Shown in pieces: positions 2,784-54,582 of a DNA stretch of 64,000 bases. The stretch comes from Streptomyces sp. Q6 (lineage in GTDB: Bacteria; Actinomycetota; Actinomycetes; Streptomycetales; Streptomycetaceae): positions 3,658,001-3,722,000 of the forward strand of contig NZ_CP146022.1 of assembly GCF_036967205.1 (NCBI RefSeq), given 5' to 3'. Position 1 is the first letter of the stretch; each line of letters opens with the position of its first letter. The notes under the pieces were generated by a model. It saw only the letters and a program-made list of their open reading frames with translations. It was not told where the DNA came from and made no database searches. The position numbers were made by a program, and so were the translations under genes.

Positions 2784-4102
2784 ATGGCCGACCGCTATCT
2801 GAACTTCACCGGCACGGCTCCCGGCCGCTTCCTGACCCGCCGCCTCGGCCTGCCGCAGCCCGCGCCCCTGCACCGCTGGAGCCCCGAACACCCCTTTCTG
2901 GAAGGGACGTTGCTGCACCTCACGGTCGGCGATCCGGCGCACCGGGAGGCGCTCGCGGCCGTGCTGGCCGACACCGGGCTCCCGGTCGCCGCCACCGCCG
3001 AGCGGCCCGCCGCGGTGGTCGTCGACGCCACCGCCGTCACCGGCCCGGACGCCCTCGCCGCGGTGCACGCCGCGCTGCATCCGGTCGTACGGTCCGTCGC
3101 GGCGAGCGGCCGCGTGCTCGTCCTCGGCATGCCGCCGTCCGCCGACGACCACCACCAGGCGGCGGCGCAGCAGGCTCTGGAGGGCTTCGTCCGCTCCCTC
3201 GGCAAGGAGATCGGCCGCGGCCGCACCGTGAACCTGGTCCGGCTCGCGGCCCCGGTGACGGCGGCGGCGTCGACCCTGCGCTTCCTGCTCTCCCCAAGTC
3301 GGCGTACGTCAGCGGCCAGGTCGTCGACGTGGCCGCCACCGGCGCGGAGTCGACACCGACCGTCGACGCCGAGCGGCCGCTCGCCGGGCGGACCGCGCTG
3401 GTCACCGGCGCCGCGCGCGGCATCGGCGAGGCCGTCGCCGAGACCCTCGTACGGGACGGGGCGCGGATCGTCCTGCTCGATGTGCCGTCCGCCGAGGAGG
3501 ACCTGGCGAAGGTCGCGGAGCGGCTCGGCGGGCGGGCGCTGCCGTTGGACATCACGGCGGCGGACGCGGGCGAGCGGATCGCCGCGTTCACCGACGGCCT
3601 CGACGTCCTCGTCCACAACGCGGGCATCACGCGCGACCGGCGCCTCGCCAACATGCCGGCCGAGCGCTGGAGTTCGGTCCTCGACGTCAATCTCGGCAGT
3701 GTGCTGCGCACGACGGACGCGCTGCTCACGTCGGGCGCGGTGCGGCGCGGCGGCAGCATCGTCGCGACGGCGTCCATCGCGGGGCTCGCGGGCAACGCGG
3801 GCCAGACCAACTACGCCGCGAGCAAGGCCGGCATCGTCGGTCTCGTACGGTCGCTGGCGCCGCGCGCGGCGGCCGAGCACGGGGTCACGGTGAACGCGGT
3901 GGCCCCCGGTTTCATCGAGACGAGGATGACGGCGGCGGTGCCGCTGTTCATCCGGGAGGCGGGGCGGCGGATGAACTCCCTCGCGCAGGGCGGGCTTCCG
4001 GTGGACGTGGCGGAGACGACGTCGTGGCTCGCGTCACCGGCGTCCGGAGCGGTGAACGGTCAGGTGGTGCGGGTGTGCGGGCAGAGCCTCCTGGGGGCGT
4101 AG
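2784..4102 (+). pseudogene. 3-oxoacyl-ACP reductase, FabG4-like two-domain SDR, frameshifted
   Basis: Conceptual product of about 440 aa with an N-terminal NAD-free flavodoxin-like region (from MADRYLNFTGTAPGRF) and a C-terminal short-chain dehydrogenase. The SDR domain has the NADP loop TGAARGIG, HNAG and the catalytic YAASK. The reading frame breaks at the C4 run 3292-3295: upstream it reads to ...LRFLLSP, downstream it resumes as KSAYVSGQVV. One extra C restores one continuous frame, so a sequencing error is more likely than true decay. The family reduces 3-ketoacyl thioesters. The start has GGGAG about 9 bp upstream. The MaoC gene follows after 58 bp and is probably co-transcribed. Confidence 0.87.
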
Positions 4103-4160
4103 CCGCAGAGCCGCCGCCCCCACCACCCCCGCGCCCGACAGCCGACCCCCAGGACCCGCC

Positions 4161-5024
4161 ATGACCGCGACGCGCACCGTCAGCCTCCCGTCCGTGCCCT
4201 CCCTCGGCCCCGCGATGATCCGCGGAGCCGTGCTCTCCCCGCTCAAGAGGCCGCGGGAGGCCGCCGCCTGGGACGGCGCCCGGCTCCACGTCGGCGACCT
4301 GCGGATACGCGACCGCCACCTCGCCGCCTACGAGCGGGTCTGCGGCTTCCCGACCGGCCGGCCCGAACTGCCGGTCAGCTACCCGCACCTCCTCGGGTTC
4401 CCGCTGGCCATGCGGCTGATGGCGGCCCGCAGCTTCCCGCTGCCGCTGCTCGGCCTCGTCCACACGTCGATCGGGATCACGCAGCACCACGACCTCTCCC
4501 CGACACAGGCGTACGAACTCGCCGTCGTCGTCACCGGGTTGAGGCCCCACCGGCGCGGTACCGAGGCCGTCGTCGTCACCGAGCTCCTCGACGGCGGCGC
4601 TCCCGCCTGGCGGTCGACCAGTACGTACCTCTCCCGGCACCGGACGCGGACGCCCGCCGCCCCCGAGACTCCCGGCACCCCCGAACCGCTGCCCGCGCTC
4701 GCCGAGTGGCGCCTCGGCGCCGACCTGGGACGCCGCTACGCCGCCGTGTCCGGCGACCGGAACCCCATCCACCTGCACCCGCTGACGGCCCGCCTCTTCG
4801 GCTTCCCGCGCGCGATCGCCCACGGCATGTGGACGGTGGCCCGCTGCCTCGCGGAGTTCGGCGCGCGGGGGCCCGTCGACGTCACGGCGCGGTTCAGGGC
4901 GCCGGTGCTGCTGCCGGGTGCGGTGACGTACGCGGCGCGCGGCACGGCCTTCGAGCTGCGGTCGGCGAAGGACGGCCGCACACACGTGAGCGGCGAGGTG
5001 CGGCCCCTGGGATCGCCGGACTGA
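4161..5024 (+). CDS. MaoC-family dehydratase / enoyl hydratase, HtdX-like
   Basis: 287 aa double hot-dog protein. The C-terminal half holds the R-hydratase signature YAAVSGDRNPIHLHPLTA with the catalytic Asp and His, followed by FGFPRAIAHGMW. The N-terminal half is the degenerate hot-dog repeat. The family hydrates or dehydrates (R)-3-hydroxyacyl thioesters. Position directly after the FabG4-like reductase and opposite the thiolase gives the three consecutive enzymes of a reductase-dehydratase-thiolase module, matching M. tuberculosis Rv0241c-Rv0243 in family content. The missing acyl-CoA dehydrogenase step must be supplied from elsewhere. Confidence 0.92.
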   Translation: MTATRTVSLPSVPSLGPAMIRGAVLSPLKRPREAAAWDGARLHVGDLRIRDRHLAAYERVCGFPTGRPELPVSYPHLLGFPLAMRLMAARSFPLPLLGLVHTSIGITQHHDLSPTQAYELAVVVTGLRPHRRGTEAVVVTELLDGGAPAWRSTSTYLSRHRTRTPAAPETPGTPEPLPALAEWRLGADLGRRYAAVSGDRNPIHLHPLTARLFGFPRAIAHGMWTVARCLAEFGARGPVDVTARFRAPVLLPGAVTYAARGTAFELRSAKDGRTHVSGEVRPLGSPD

Positions 5025-5069
5025 CCGGCGCGGTGGCCCCTGGGGCCACCGATCCGACCAGCGTGTCCG

Positions 5070-5735
5070 TCAAGGGCGCCGGTCCGACCAGCGCTGTCCG
5101 TCCATCAGGCTGCCGAGCCCGGACCACGCGAAGTTCATCATCGTCGTGGCGGCCTCCTTCGCGGAGACGGACGGGTCGGCGTTGGCCCAGCCCGCGAGGG
5201 CCTCCGCCGCGCCGACGAGTGCCTGCGCCAGGCCCGCGACCTCGCGCTCGGCGAGTTCGGGATCGCCGTGCGCCTCCCGCGCGGCCGCCGCGATCAGCGT
5301 CGTCACGAACGACACGATCTCGTCCCGCATCGCCCCGACCTCGGCGACGAACGGCTCACCGCCCGTGCGCGCGTGGCTGTGCAGGACGGCCCATCCGTCG
5401 GGGTGTTCGGCGGTGTGCGAGAAGAAGGCCGTGAGCCCCTCCCACAGCTGCCGGTCGGCCGGGGCGTCGGCGCGGACGCCCGCCCGTACGGCGGCGACGA
5501 GCGCGGCCGCCTCGCGCCGGATGCAGGCGGTGAAGAGGTCTTCCTTCGAGTTCAGGTACAGATACACCAGCGGCTTGGAGACTCCGGCGAGGTCCGCGAT
5601 CTCGTCCATCGAGGCGGCCCGGTAGCCGCGCTCGCCGAACACCCGTACCGCGGCGTCCGTCATCTGCCGCTCCCGCTCGGCCCGCGGCAGCCGCTTGGCC
5701 CGCCCGCTCTGCTGCCCGGCCTTCACGCCGCCCAC
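5070..5735 (-). CDS. TetR/AcrR-family transcriptional regulator
   Basis: 221 aa. The N-terminal HTH is complete (VFGERGYRAASMDEIADLAG, then VSKPLVYLYLNSKEDLF). The C-terminal domain is all-helical, Ala-rich and unassigned. It is convergent with the MaoC gene, 45 bp away. Being the only regulator beside the thiolase/reductase/dehydratase genes, it may sense acyl-CoA and bind the palindromes at 2735-2762; this is inference. The first ATG at 5735 gives a basic leader of about 20 residues before LPRAERERQ, so a downstream start is possible. Confidence 0.9.
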   Translation of the reverse strand: MGGVKAGQQSGRAKRLPRAERERQMTDAAVRVFGERGYRAASMDEIADLAGVSKPLVYLYLNSKEDLFTACIRREAAALVAAVRAGVRADAPADRQLWEGLTAFFSHTAEHPDGWAVLHSHARTGGEPFVAEVGAMRDEIVSFVTTLIAAAAREAHGDPELAEREVAGLAQALVGAAEALAGWANADPSVSAKEAATTMMNFAWSGLGSLMDGQRWSDRRP

Positions 5736-5859
5736 CCCTGCCGCCCTTCGTTCACGCGCTGTGCACGGTTCAGGGTACGCAGCGCGAAACGGCCGTGCCC
5801 CGCCGCCCGGACCAGGTCCGGGGGCGGGGCACGGCCGGTGGACGGCGCGCCGGGGGACG

Positions 5860-7176
5860 TCAGGCGGCGACCGCCACCTGCTGCTGCGGCTCGTCGACGG
5901 GAGACGCGGTGACCTGGTTGTACTTGTCGTGGTCGAGGATCTTCTCGCGGGCGGCGACGATCACGGGGACGAGCGCCTGGCCGGCGACGTTCGTCGCGGT
6001 GCGCATCATGTCCAGGATCGGGTCGATCGCGAGGAGCAGACCCACGCCCTCCAGCGGGAGGCCCAGCGTGGAGAGGGTCAGGGTGAGCATGACCGTCGCG
6101 CCGGTGAGACCGGCGGTGGCGGCGGAGCCGATCACCGAGACGAACGCGATGAGCAGGTACTCCTTGACGCCCATGTCGACGTCGAAGAAGTTCGCGACGA
6201 AGATCGCGGCGATCGCCGGGTAGATCGCGGCGCAGCCGTCCATCTTCGTGGTCGCGCCGAACGGCACGGCGAACGAGGCGTAGTCCTTCGGGACACCGAG
6301 CCGGATCGCGGACTGCTGGGTGACCGGCATGGTGCCGACCGAGGAGCGGGAGACGAACGCCAGCTGGATGGCGGGCCAGGCGCCCTTGAAGAACTGGATC
6401 GGGTTCAGCTTGGCCACCGTGGAGAGCAGCAGCGGGTAGACGCCGAACAGGACCAGGGCGCAGCCGACGTAGATGTCGGCGGTGAAGGTCGCGTACTTGC
6501 CGATCAGGTCCCAGCCGTACTGGACGATCGCGTTGCCGATGAGGCCGGCGGAGCCGATCGGGGAGAGCTTGATGACCCACCACAGGGCCTTCTGGAGCAG
6601 CTCGAGGATCGACTCGGAGAGGGTGAGGACCGGGGCGGCCTTCTCGCCGACCTTCAGGATCGCGATACCGGCGACGACGGCCATGAAGACGATCTGCAGC
6701 ACGTTCAGCTCGGTGAACGGCGTGATGATGTCGGTCGGGATGATGCCGGTGAGGAAGTCGATCCAGGAGCCCTGGGTCTCGGGCTTCGCGGCGTCGGCGG
6801 CCGAGAGCGTCGTGCCGTTGCCGGGGTTGGTCAGCAGGCCGATGGCGAGGCCGATGACGACCGCGATCAGCGACGTGATCATGAACCAGAGGAGCGTGCG
6901 GCCGGCGAGCCGGGCGGCGTTGTCGACCTTCCTCAGGTTGGTGATCGACACGAGGATCGCGAAGAAGACGAGCGGGGCGACGGCCAGCTTCAGGAGCTGG
7001 ACGAAGATCTCGCCGACCTTCGCCAGGGTCGTGCCGAGCCAGGACACGTCGGCGGTACGGGCGACGTAGCCGAGGAGCAGACCGACGACGAGGCCGAGCA
7101 GCACCTGGGCCCAGAACGGGATCTTCGGTATGCGGAAGCCGGTCTTCTGATCGGCTGCGGGGGTGTTCGCGGACAC
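5860..7176 (-). CDS. Cation:dicarboxylate symporter (DAACS family)
   Basis: 438 aa integral membrane protein. It has the DAACS hallmarks: the serine-rich re-entrant loop FVSRSSVGTMPVT, the cation/substrate element ATTKMDGCAA (the NMDGT-type motif) and the final helix LAIDPILDMMRTATNV. The family imports C4-dicarboxylates or acidic amino acids with Na+ or H+; the TKMDG variant fits dicarboxylate- or cystine-type members better than neuronal glutamate carriers, so the exact substrate is open. It is monocistronic, with a long leader on its 5' side that includes CTTTGAG direct repeats. Confidence 0.92.
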   Translation of the reverse strand: MSANTPAADQKTGFRIPKIPFWAQVLLGLVVGLLLGYVARTADVSWLGTTLAKVGEIFVQLLKLAVAPLVFFAILVSITNLRKVDNAARLAGRTLLWFMITSLIAVVIGLAIGLLTNPGNGTTLSAADAAKPETQGSWIDFLTGIIPTDIITPFTELNVLQIVFMAVVAGIAILKVGEKAAPVLTLSESILELLQKALWWVIKLSPIGSAGLIGNAIVQYGWDLIGKYATFTADIYVGCALVLFGVYPLLLSTVAKLNPIQFFKGAWPAIQLAFVSRSSVGTMPVTQQSAIRLGVPKDYASFAVPFGATTKMDGCAAIYPAIAAIFVANFFDVDMGVKEYLLIAFVSVIGSAATAGLTGATVMLTLTLSTLGLPLEGVGLLLAIDPILDMMRTATNVAGQALVPVIVAAREKILDHDKYNQVTASPVDEPQQQVAVAA

Positions 7177-51467: not shown

Positions 51468-52331
51468 TCAGTACGCGAAGTCGTACACGGACCAGTCGGT
51501 GACCAGTTCGTACCCGAGCCGCCGGTAGAGGGCGTTGCTCGTGGAGTTGGTCGCGTCCGTGCACAGGACGGCCTCCCTGGCGCCCCCGGCCAGCGCGGCG
51601 CGGCTCACCTCGACCGTCACGGCCGCCGCGTACCCGTGTCCGCGCAGCGCGGCCGGGGTGTAGACGGGGTCCACCTGGGCGACCCCCTCCACCACCGGGT
51701 TCACCCCGGCCATGGACAACGGTGTCCCGTCCTCGGCCTCCCAGAACGTGTACGTCTTGTCGGCGAACCGCGTGCCCGACCACGTACCGGCGTCGATGAC
51801 GACATCCTCCCCGACATCGGCGGCGAACTCCCGGCACCAGCGCATGAGTTGCTCGCGGTCCGCGCCCTCCACGACCCGGCCCCGCCCCGCCGGGAACGGC
51901 TCCGGCGGCGTCAGCGTGCCCAGCCGGTACAGACACATCGGCACCCGCAGCTCCGCCGTGACACCGGTGTGCCGCTGCCAGGCCGCGACGAACGCGTCGG
52001 CGGTGGCCCGGTCGGCGCTGACGTACGGGACACCAACCCCCCGCCCCGCCAACCGCGCGGCGAGCCCGTCGGCCTGCTCGGGGGTGAGCGGCGTGAGCCC
52101 GACCCCCTGCGAGGGCAGCCGGTGGAACGTGCCCTCGATCCCGCCGTCGGCCCGCTCCAGGCTGCCGAACAACGGCGCGTCCGGCCCGTACCAGGCCGCC
52201 CCGCGCTTGCGCAGCCGCGCGAGCGCCGTCAGCTGCACCAGGTGCGCGACGGGCCGCGACCGTACGAAATCCCCCGCCCGGTCCAGAAAGCCGTCCAGGT
52301 CTTCGGTGAGGTGCCAGTGGTCCGAGTGCAT
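51468..52331 (-). CDS. GNAT-family N-acetyltransferase (two-domain)
   Basis: 287 aa from ATG 52331 (MHSDHWHLTEDLDGFLDRAG). The C-terminal GNAT core reads VDPVYTPAALRGHGYAAAVT and LCTDATNSTSNALYRRLGYE. The ~130-residue N-terminal part (SRPVAHLVQLTALARLRKRG) is GNAT-like but degenerate, as in predicted acetyltransferases of this size. Substrate unknown. Likely co-transcribed with the RmlD-like gene. Confidence 0.9.
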   Translation of the reverse strand: MHSDHWHLTEDLDGFLDRAGDFVRSRPVAHLVQLTALARLRKRGAAWYGPDAPLFGSLERADGGIEGTFHRLPSQGVGLTPLTPEQADGLAARLAGRGVGVPYVSADRATADAFVAAWQRHTGVTAELRVPMCLYRLGTLTPPEPFPAGRGRVVEGADREQLMRWCREFAADVGEDVVIDAGTWSGTRFADKTYTFWEAEDGTPLSMAGVNPVVEGVAQVDPVYTPAALRGHGYAAAVTVEVSRAALAGGAREAVLCTDATNSTSNALYRRLGYELVTDWSVYDFAY

Positions 52332-52427
52332 GCCGCATGATCCCACTCACACGAGTGACGCTGATCGATTTTCCGGTCGAGCTACAACGCGCTGGCTAGC
52401 GTCATGGACGACAACCAAAAACAGTGC

Positions 52428-52462
52428 GGCCCCCGGCGGGATTGCAGTCCCGGCCGGGGGCC
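52428..52462 (+). terminator. Strong hairpin in the leader of the homing endonuclease gene
   Basis: GGCCCCCGGC (52428-52437) pairs perfectly with GCCGGGGGCC (52453-52462), with an inner GGGA/TCCC stem. It lies 28 nt before the endonuclease ATG. It could be a transcription terminator isolating the gene or an mRNA stem at its 5' end. The rest of 52350-52489 has no recognised gene. Confidence 0.5.
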
Positions 52463-52489
52463 TGACCAGAAGGAAGGCAGTGACTTCCC

Positions 52490-53341
52490 ATGGCTGAACG
52501 CGAGCCTAGCGCTCACCAGTTGGCGTTCGACGTCTCCTCGGGATTCATGGACCTGGGGGTGCCGGAGTACTCGTACATGTACGGATTTCTGCAGATGGAC
52601 GGGCACCTCTCGCGACAATCCCGCGACCGGGGCCGCATGACCGTCGAGATCAACATCCGTGACATCGAAATCCTGCGCAGCTTCCAGAAGTTGACGCCGT
52701 ACAACAGCACCATCTCCGAGCGGGTACGGTCGACGAACTTCGCCACGTCCCACCACTCGGCGATCTGGACCCTGTGCTCGCTGGAAGCGCGCACGAAGCT
52801 CAATGAGCTCGGATTGCCGTACGGGCGCAAGTCCCAGCAGATCAAGCCGCCCCGCGTGCCGTTCTCACGGCCCGACTACCTGCGGGGCGTGATCGACGCC
52901 GACGGGTCCGTGGGCTACACGAAGCAGGGGCTGCCGTTCGTCTCCCTCACGACGGCAAGCACCGCGATCGCCGCGTACTTCTGCTTCTACGCCAAGAAGA
53001 TCACTGGTGCCTCCCGGCACCCGGGCCGGAACGAGCGGGACGCGATCTACAACATCCTGTACTCGAAGGAGGCGTCCCAGGCCCTGGCGGCGCATCTCTA
53101 CTATCCGGGCTGCCTCGCACTTGAGCGCAAGCAGGCAGCCGCCGACTCGTTGCACGCCTGGGTGCGCCCGCCCGGCATGAAAACCTCTCCCCACCACCGC
53201 CGCTGGAGGGAATGGGAGGACCGCATCCTCCTCGGGCACAGCAGCATCACCGCAGCCGCCGAGGAGTTGGGCCGCAGCTACCAGAGCTGCCAACTGCGGC
53301 AGTGGCGCCTGCGCACCGGGCGGGTATCCATGCCCGAATAG
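52490..53341 (+). CDS. Free-standing LAGLIDADG homing endonuclease with Myb-like C-terminus
   Basis: 283 aa. Two LAGLIDADG motifs, MYGFLQMDG (residues 30-38) and LRGVIDADG (131-139), both keep the catalytic Asp before the final Gly, so a single-chain active enzyme is likely. A C-terminal domain (RRWREWEDRILLGHSSITAA followed by AEELGRSYQSCQLRQWR) resembles a Myb/SANT-type HTH that could add DNA specificity. AGGAAGG precedes the ATG by 12 nt. G+C of two hand-counted 60-nt blocks is 57%, well below the flanking genes. It is convergent with rtcB, 47 bp apart. No intron or intein context was seen. Confidence 0.85.
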   Translation: MAEREPSAHQLAFDVSSGFMDLGVPEYSYMYGFLQMDGHLSRQSRDRGRMTVEINIRDIEILRSFQKLTPYNSTISERVRSTNFATSHHSAIWTLCSLEARTKLNELGLPYGRKSQQIKPPRVPFSRPDYLRGVIDADGSVGYTKQGLPFVSLTTASTAIAAYFCFYAKKITGASRHPGRNERDAIYNILYSKEASQALAAHLYYPGCLALERKQAAADSLHAWVRPPGMKTSPHHRRWREWEDRILLGHSSITAAAEELGRSYQSCQLRQWRLRTGRVSMPE

Positions 53342-53350
53342 CCGGAATGT

Positions 53351-53378
53351 GGGCCCGAGCCGCTACCGGCTCGGGCCC
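53351..53378. terminator. Bidirectional terminator between endonuclease and rtcB
   Basis: Perfect 12-bp stem GGGCCCGAGCCG (53351-53362) with CGGCTCGGGCCC (53367-53378) and a CTAC loop, between two convergent stops. Confidence 0.8.
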
Positions 53379-53388
53379 TAACGGCAGT

Positions 53389-54582
53389 TCAGCCCTTCAC
53401 ACAGATGACTTGCTTGATCTTCGCCACGACCTCCACGAGATCGCGCTGCTGCTCCATCACGTGCTCGATGTTCTTGTACGCGCCGGGAATCTCGTCCAGC
53501 ACGCCGGAGTCCTTGCGACACTCCACACCCCGCGTCTGCTCCTCCAGGTCGCGCACCGTGAAATGCCGCTTCGCCGCACTGCGGCTCATACGCCGACCAG
53601 CACCGTGCGAAGCCGAGTTGAACGCCTTGCTGTTTCCCAGGCCCTTCACAATGTACGACGCGGTCCCCATGGAGCCGGGAATGATCCCGTAGTCGCCCGC
53701 GCCGGCCCGGATGGCACCCTTGCGCGTAATAAGCAGGTCCATGCCGTCGTAGCGCTCTTCGCTCACGTAATTGTGATGACAGGACACCTCGGACTCGAAG
53801 GTCGGCTTCGCCTTCTTGAACTCCTTGCGGATCACGTCCTTGAGAAGCGCCATCATGATCGCGCGGTTGTACTTGGCGTACTCCTGGGCCCAGTACAGAT
53901 CGTTCCGGTACGCCGCCATCTGCGGGGTCTCCGCTATGAACACCGCCAAGTCGCGGTCGACCAGGTTCTGGTTGTGCGGGAGGCTCCGTGCGACGCCGAT
54001 GTGGTGATCTGCGAGTTCCTTGCCGATGTTGCGGGAACCGGAGTGCAGCATGAGCCATACCGAACCTGACTCATCAAGGCACACTTCAGCCAGATGATTT
54101 CCGGCTCCGAGCGTTCCCATCTGCTTATGAGCGCGTTCCTGACGGAATTTGACCGATTCGGCGACCCCCTCGAACCGCGCCCAGAAGTCGTCCCAGCCGG
54201 CCGTGCCGAAGCCGTGCAGCCGGCCCGGGTCGACCGGGTCGTCGTGCATGCCGCGGCCCACCGGGATCGCCTGCTCGATCTTCGCGCGGAGGCGGGAGAG
54301 GTCGCCGGGCAGGTCGTTGGCCGTCAGGGACGTCCTGACCGCGCTCATGCCGCAGCCGATGTCCACGCCGACCGCCGCCGGGCAGACCGCGCCCCGCATC
54401 GCGATGACCGAACCGACCGTCGCCCCCTTGCCGTAGTGGACGTCGGGCATCACGGCCAGGCCCTGGATCCAGGGCAGGGTCGCCACGTTGCGCAGCTGCT
54501 GCATCGCCCCGTCGTCGACCGACGCCGGGTCGGCCCACATGCGGATGGGGACCTTGGCCCCCGGCACCTCTACGTATGACAT
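53389..54582 (-). CDS. rtcB: RNA-splicing ligase RtcB
   Basis: 397 aa from ATG 54582 (MSYVEVPGAKVPIRMWADPA). Mn-binding and catalytic residues are complete: VGVDIGCGMS (D74, C77), GAGNHLAEV (H163), LMLHSGSR (H180), SCHHNYV (H269/H270) and the guanylated His in SASHGAGRRMS (H326). RtcB joins 2',3'-cyclic-phosphate or 3'-phosphate ends to 5'-OH ends using GTP in RNA repair or tRNA splicing. Hand counts show 54181-54420 at 75% G+C but 53401-54180 at 61%, a switch near codon 137. The low-GC part adjoins the homing-endonuclease gene. No archease gene is nearby. Confidence 0.94.
   Translation of the reverse strand: MSYVEVPGAKVPIRMWADPASVDDGAMQQLRNVATLPWIQGLAVMPDVHYGKGATVGSVIAMRGAVCPAAVGVDIGCGMSAVRTSLTANDLPGDLSRLRAKIEQAIPVGRGMHDDPVDPGRLHGFGTAGWDDFWARFEGVAESVKFRQERAHKQMGTLGAGNHLAEVCLDESGSVWLMLHSGSRNIGKELADHHIGVARSLPHNQNLVDRDLAVFIAETPQMAAYRNDLYWAQEYAKYNRAIMMALLKDVIRKEFKKAKPTFESEVSCHHNYVSEERYDGMDLLITRKGAIRAGAGDYGIIPGSMGTASYIVKGLGNSKAFNSASHGAGRRMSRSAAKRHFTVRDLEEQTRGVECRKDSGVLDEIPGAYKNIEHVMEQQRDLVEVVAKIKQVICVKG

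Follow-up and report, generated by a model that had tools for sequence, protein, structure and literature searches.

Intronless and Collaborative Homing

Intronless and collaborative homing are outlined in the accessible parts of PMC6083498, PMC2988022, and PMC3984707; intronless homing is a strategy known mainly from viruses. Here we describe a locus on the chromosome of Streptomyces sp. Q6, in which a gene for a free-standing LAGLIDADG homing endonuclease (HE) lies next to rtcB, the gene of an RNA ligase. The locus belongs to a stretch of 64,000 nucleotides (the window; contig NZ_CP146022.1, positions 3,658,001 to 3,722,000), and comparison with other genomes suggests that the endonuclease repeatedly homes by co-converting its neighbor.

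According to the available portions of PMC2988022 and PMC6083498, the SegF and SegG genes of phage T4 are free-standing and located beside a conserved gene; the cut is made at a distance in that neighbor, and co-conversion carries the endonuclease along. The arrangement proposed here for HE is similar. However, the Seg enzymes belong to the GIY-YIG type and act between coinfecting phages, whereas HE is a LAGLIDADG protein of a bacterial chromosome whose target would be rtcB. The collaborative homing of F-CphI and psbA in cyanophages differs both in the enzyme, which has an Endo VII motif, and in the intron that protects the donor gene. Because the window rtcB has no intron, its protection would require an altered target sequence, unlike in F-CphI. 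In the Haloferax glycosylation islands, free-standing LAGLIDADG genes also occur on a cellular chromosome and gene conversion has been suggested; this conversion is a proposal, and the accessible text of PMC5867893 gives neither a target gene nor a tract.

The rtcB gene itself is known to host mobile elements. In the Bacillus phages Goe27, BSP36, and 278BB001, a group I intron of rtcB is accompanied by a LAGLIDADG open reading frame (ORF) that is homologous to HE and related to the same codon boundary of the same gene, but these enzymes are intron-associated while HE is free-standing. The rtcB gene of Pyrococcus horikoshii carries an intein. This archaeal element, cited as the parallel in an initial annotation of the window, is likewise a mobile element of rtcB, but it is removed by protein splicing, and the phage intron is the better parallel. 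Searches confined to open PubMed Central listed no article on such a system, judged by title or displayed abstract.

The Endonuclease and Its Linkage to rtcB

The HE protein matches the Pfam family LAGLIDADG_3 (26.9 bits, cut-off 22.5) and PHROG 4645, annotated as "endonuclease" (5e-19). The final acids of its two LAGLIDADG motifs, D37 and D138, which we take to occupy the catalytic positions, are invariant in 27 aligned homologues, and this bears out the initial description of a single-chain enzyme with both catalytic Asp residues intact. The predicted structure comprises a pair of LAGLIDADG-type repeats and, inside residues 241-276, three helices of the C-terminal part; motifs, acids, and predicted fold are together those of a LAGLIDADG homing endonuclease. 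Structural matches obtained with VIA-align extend over residues 16-232 only, so the C-terminal helices are barely covered, and the Myb-like label that they received initially remains a guess. The median ratio of nonsynonymous to synonymous substitution rates (dN/dS) is 0.31 over 2012 homologue pairs, indicating purifying selection on HE. The protein is presumably an active nuclease.

HE and rtcB are convergent and separated by 47 bp, with the ORFs as first annotated. The window rtcB is the sole RtcB match in its genome and would be both the target of HE and the co-converted gene. It is an uninterrupted ORF whose product matches the Pfam model from end to end with no large insertion, excluding an in-frame intein, and Rfam finds no group I intron in the window.

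HE is optional while rtcB is conserved: RtcB is matched in 285 of 295 Streptomyces genomes (a few matches are weak) and HE in 45. Of the HE copies, 33 are close to full length, one of them interrupted by a TAA, and the other 12 are marginal, partial, or split. The position of the free-standing gene is fixed. All 30 HE loci fetched from the 295-genome set adjoin rtcB, and of 80 named Streptomyces loci, 79 have HE convergent with rtcB (78 without overlap, one with a small overlap). The 80th locus (L250, S. mexicanus Marseille-Q0842, 4001-5910) retains HE but has no rtcB within 8.8 kb. There, HE adjoins a lipoprotein gene 48% identical to that of the window. This gene neighbors rtcB in 155 of 158 Streptomyces loci, and HE occupies its usual site minus rtcB. 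The initially proposed association with the rtcB 3′ end is therefore nearly complete in Streptomyces. Outside the genus, a class-wide sample yielded HE in three more genomes, with rtcB as its neighbor in one and not in the other two (11 of 394 with any hit), and an order-wide sample yielded two genomes of another family, both with HE adjoining rtcB and one of them with a decayed copy (53 of 294 with any hit).

Relatives in Phages and Plasmids

The best matches to HE among named phages are five Bacillus phages, 42-44% identical over 91% of the query. In the three that were fetched, the endonuclease gene follows a group I intron within rtcB (Rfam RF00028, 67-73 bits). The exon junction, G[TS]LGGG|NHF (GTLGGG or GSLGGG), corresponds to the 161|162 codon boundary in the window rtcB (bases 54100 and 54099 on either side) and falls inside the catalytic GxGxGNH motif of RtcB. 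In Goe27, rtcB (L067 2544-3437) has a further break at codon 74, where two weak group I matches of 30 and 29 bits fall short of the cut-off; this single gene possibly holds three introns.

Five viral contigs (L301, L303, L310, L311, and L313) have rtcB split at the junction used in the Bacillus phages. A group I intron is matched in L301 (68.4 bits, Rfam), and at an E-value of 0.1 none is found in L303, L306, L310, L311, or L313. In viral contig L306 (3523-5618), rtcB is present as two ORFs split ahead of the catalytic motif, with an HE homologue between them. Free-standing arrangements occur as well. On a Jeotgalibacillus plasmid, for instance, an HE relative begins 36 nt after an unsplit rtcB, and its frame is closed by a stop ahead of the C-terminal helices. 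In a phage of 485 kb, the HE match starts just past an unsplit rtcB and is devoid of the first motif.

Overall, among the viral contigs, rtcB is in the locus of 15 of the 18 top-scoring relatives (E no worse than 5e-27) vs. 1 of 62 others. In this set the matches of L303 and L304 are identical, and L305 is apparently the L068 phage; 80 of 81 relatives were retained in the viral-contig search and 80 of 161 in one homologue search. Because RtcB is rare among phage records (530 of 50,697 at E 1e-20), a chance neighborhood of HE and rtcB is a poor explanation.

Divergent Tracts and Replaced Blocks

Upstream-flank distances were obtained for 8287 pairs of Streptomyces rtcB loci, excluding pairs with fewer than 700 aligned bases. 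A divergent tract in rtcB is supported in 123 of 164 close pairs (upstream distance <0.13), and codon 161 is inside 116 of the 123 tracts where 25.3 are expected by length. Close pairs share genomes, so 63 disjoint pairs were also taken. When at least one member has HE or a fragment of it, a tract that beats all of just 60 codon shuffles per pair is present in 40 of 54 disjoint pairs and covers codon 161 in 37 of the 40 (9.7 expected).

Sister genomes bracket single events. L261 and L116, both with HE, are 95-100% identical outside a replaced block that is 48-87% identical and runs from rtcB nucleotides ~340-400 (codon ~114) through HE to its 5′ end (~2180); one 262-base indel lies downstream. 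In L274 and L121, the block spans ~470 to ~2000. Between L248, which has HE, and L053, which has not, the flanks are 91-100% identical, rtcB diverges past codon ~115, and an insertion of ~1 kb holds HE. The sisters L112 and L082, with and without HE, likewise differ by a gain of just ~1 kb. Insertion linked to a tRNA or a prophage was considered and rejected, as the window has no tRNA or tmRNA gene and the gains in L248/L053 and L112/L082 are of just this size. Other pairs with and without HE show wider downstream differences (L285/L140) or no downstream match (L276/L173). Finally, L123 has a full HE and L135 a remnant; their rtcB genes differ by 32% over codons 135-202 and by 3% elsewhere, apparently a converted target next to a decaying HE.

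Trees and Inheritance

The rtcB set consists of 158 distinct Streptomyces alleles: 94 with HE, 56 without, and 8 with partial copies that were kept apart. HE was counted as present when at least 240 of 283 residues were matched, which includes a few split copies (90 of the 94 matches are uninterrupted). Six Streptomyces rtcB genes were excluded for a length other than 397 codons or a downstream flank below 1200. Separate trees of the two ends of rtcB conflict, as the initial annotation had anticipated: 29 and 26 of 45 supported clades of the 5′ tree (codons 1-112) are contradicted by two 3′ trees, vs. 15 of 44 when the 3′ trees are set against each other. On the 150-gene trees, the presence of HE changes 37 times on the 5′ tree vs. 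29 and 27 times on the 3′ trees of equal length. With 200 label shuffles on the 5′ tree the mean is 45.6 and the minimum 39, so some HE signal remains there too.

Base Composition

The initial annotation had read a low-GC block as a mark of transfer. Its hand count of a fall in rtcB from 75 to 61% agrees with the measured values (74.6% at 54181-54420 and 61.3% at 53401-54180), but the ~57% given for HE was a miscount; the gene has 65.4% G+C. The raw step was rejected as evidence of transfer, since before and after codon 137 the G+C content falls from 70.5 to 64.6% in 38 HE-less Streptomyces genes and from 70.3 to 62.9% in 34 HE-bearing ones. The drop is largely intrinsic to Streptomyces rtcB, and the informative signal is the G+C content at third codon positions (GC3), which is lower in HE-bearing alleles on the HE side. 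GC3 at codons 140-397 is 0.881 in the 94 HE-bearing and 0.919 in the 56 HE-less Streptomyces genes (p = 6e-8), while at codons 1-136 it is 0.928 and 0.929. GC3 of the window rtcB stays close to 1.0 through codon 140 (0.8-1.0 in each run of 10 codons), reaches a minimum of 0.3 at codons 161-170 and is 0.87 over codons 201-397.

The same contrast is seen in 51 disjoint pairs of one HE-bearing and one HE-less gene (upstream-flank distance <0.20, median 0.15). The partners do not differ at codons 1-112 (p = 0.15) or 113-155 (p = 0.74); a deficit of the HE-bearing one emerges at codons 156-180 (-0.051, p = 0.018) and is pronounced over codons 181-300 (-0.046, p = 3.2e-6, HE-bearing partner lower in 42 of 51 pairs) and 301-397 (-0.043, p = 3.5e-6, lower in 40 of 51). 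The shift thus starts close to where the phage intron sits and is confined to the HE side. Two further genera follow this trend at codons 161-180: in one, GC3 is 1.00 in four HE-less congeners and 0.75 in two HE-bearing ones; in the other, it is 0.55 in one HE-bearing gene vs. 0.85 in one HE-less congener. Over codons 141-180, GC3 dips in HE-bearing (0.78 and 0.68) and HE-less Streptomyces (0.81 and 0.74) alike, but shows no dip (0.91 and 0.95) in 28 genes of other actinobacteria, one of which (L210) carries an HE. In HE-less Streptomyces, certain codons between 142 and 196 (some E, G, D, and R) retain low-GC third positions, and third-position diversity is high.

A Model of Homing and Its Alternatives

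Very probably, the locus is a case of intronless homing, resembling SegF and SegG but on a bacterial chromosome, in which rtcB is co-converted from a cut near codon 161. In this model HE is a free-standing, selfish gene. Once DNA of an HE-bearing strain meets an HE-less rtcB allele in one cell, likely through conjugation, the enzyme would cut that allele within the codons of the catalytic motif, at about 161-162. Repair of the break off the HE-bearing donor would copy a tract that starts near the cut, takes in the 3′ part of rtcB and the intergenic region, and ends within or beyond HE. The recipient would inherit HE, and its rtcB past codon ~114-160 would be replaced by the donor allele, presumably becoming resistant thereafter. 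HE would later decay by frameshift and deletion and could be lost. Linkage, tree conflict, tracts, GC3, and replaced blocks all support co-conversion as first proposed, insofar as genome comparison can reveal it. The phage intron site, tract position, and GC3 place the likely cut at codon ~161 and not near codon 137, where the initial annotation had seen the composition change; its exact position, the resistance of the target, and the route of DNA entry are inferred.

Several observations weigh against this model. Tracts are supported in 5 of 9 disjoint pairs in which neither member has HE, and all five cover codon 161 (1.1 expected); the GC3 dip at codons 141-180 is likewise present in HE-less Streptomyces. 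Intronless homing must therefore invoke endonucleases since lost. By eye, there is no fixed difference between HE-bearing and HE-less alleles in rtcB codons 151-172, and no resistant target is found by sequence. In Mantel tests, HE distance correlates alike with the 5′ part of rtcB (r 0.50), its 3′ part (0.50-0.52), and the flank upstream (0.55). HE thus has a mainly vertical or regional history without a special bond to the 3′ half, and long vertical stretches separate homing events. Codons ~111-153 vary also in HE-less genera, and the 5′ edges of the tracts at codons 113-116 are hence partly intrinsic. Lastly, two distant actinobacterial copies (G415 and G487) and three viral homologues (L300, L312, and L315) have no rtcB next to them in the stretches read. 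The two actinobacterial copies, from one genus (L413 7000-7770 and L412 7306-8088), are 47-48% identical to HE, with no rtcB within the 15-17 kb read; a change of target is possible.

The tracts of HE-less pairs, the correlation with the upstream flank, and the variability of codons ~111-153 would also be expected if the 3′ end of rtcB were an ordinary recombination hot spot or under diversifying selection, with HE as a non-driving passenger. This is improbable, because in other genera, where pairs were chosen by rtcB distance and not by flank, tracts cover codon 161 no more often than expected in HE-less pairs (11 of 43, 10.1 expected) but in 9 of 9 pairs with an HE-bearing member (0.9 expected). 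Passive hitchhiking also leaves aside that, relative to the phage intron site, the GC3 shift is restricted to the side facing HE, and that relatives of the enzyme sit in introns at that very site. A purely compositional origin, with a low-GC block intrinsic to rtcB and no transfer, would fit the drop of HE-less genes but hardly deserves credence: GC3 is lower in the HE-bearing partner of most disjoint pairs, the two ends of rtcB give conflicting trees, and the replacement of blocks between closely similar chromosomes already largely refutes it. LAGLIDADG proteins may also be domesticated. WhiA-type regulators, for instance, are near-universal and have lost the catalytic acids. HE acting as a WhiA-like DNA-binding regulator, or in RNA repair alongside RtcB, is nevertheless very unlikely, given the retained acids of all 27 homologues, the patchy distribution with 12 of 45 copies broken, partial, or marginal, an orientation that is convergent and not co-directional with rtcB, the association of its relatives with introns, and the retention of HE where rtcB is absent (L250).

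The HE Leader and Other Features

The features of the locus are listed in Table 1. The leader of HE, a conserved one, lies within the sole Rfam match at gathering level in the window, the Streptomyces RNA scr4677, and this family's cut-off is reached in 10 of 20 HE-bearing loci searched. The motif of hairpin 2 occurs in 71 of 75 HE-bearing loci with a resolved start; the hairpin is not in the RNAalifold consensus of 36 leaders. By sequestering the likely ribosome-binding site, the leader may hold HE translation low. The family is defined by the region upstream of SCO4676 in S. coelicolor. According to the available part of PMC3896431, scr4677 is antisense to SCO4676, unlike the RF02673 match here, which has the sense of HE; either Rfam has the strand reversed or the leader is a module common to several genes. 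Weaker matches in the same genome (G000:C1), at 4816628-4816773 (L062, 36.1 bits) and 3859245-3859457 (L063, 25.7 bits), both below the cut-off, are upstream of genes other than HE, and DNA of this piece of the leader also matches scattered sites in several Streptomyces. Between the convergent stops, an inverted repeat is visible, and a similar one is found in the intergenic region of L248. A block comparable to the candidate co-converted stretch of the window is directly visible in sister pairs of other genomes.

Table 1. Coordinates of features at the HE-rtcB locus, numbered from the first base of the window.
Feature	Position	Strand	Basis or detail
HE leader	52347..52489	+	within Rfam RF02673 (scr4677) match 52310-52490, 53.2 bits (cut-off 41)
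Leader hairpin 1, covarying	52428..52462	+	fold; compensatory changes support 8 of 11 predicted pairs (36 leaders)
Leader hairpin 2, GGAAG...CTTCC, pairs likely ribosome-binding site beside HE start codon	52472..52488	+	fold
HE, free-standing single-chain LAGLIDADG homing endonuclease gene with C-terminal helical domain	52490..53341	+	283 aa
Lower-GC3 stretch from rtcB codon 141 to HE, candidate co-converted block	53342..54162	.	GC3
Inverted repeat between convergent stops, possible shared terminator	53351..53378	.	by eye
rtcB, RNA ligase gene	53389..54582	-	397 aa; Pfam RtcB 4e-122
rtcB codons 156-180, putative focus of cleavage and conversion	54043..54117	-	inferred

Significance of the Locus

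On balance, we lean toward regarding this family as a natural gene drive of bacterial chromosomes, in which one lineage of endonucleases is directed to the same catalytic codons of rtcB in three settings and repeated homing has rewritten the rtcB of Streptomyces. These settings are the group I intron of phages, the free-standing gene next to rtcB in phages and on the Jeotgalibacillus plasmid, and the convergent, free-standing gene of Streptomyces and no fewer than two further genera of actinobacteria. If so, a scar in GC3 and diversity would persist at the catalytic motif even after loss of the enzyme, and the family would be a living record of free-standing endonucleases and introns swapping places. 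The accessible part of PMC3984707 proposes that mobile introns arise once a pre-adapted free-standing endonuclease enters an intron; the occurrence of one enzyme family beside introns at its inferred target codon bears on this proposal. With HE present, decayed, or absent among 158 rtcB alleles and sister genomes bracketing single events, the homing cycle is open to comparison and mating. A selfish gene could in this way turn a housekeeping gene into a mosaic and mislead phylogenies based on rtcB.
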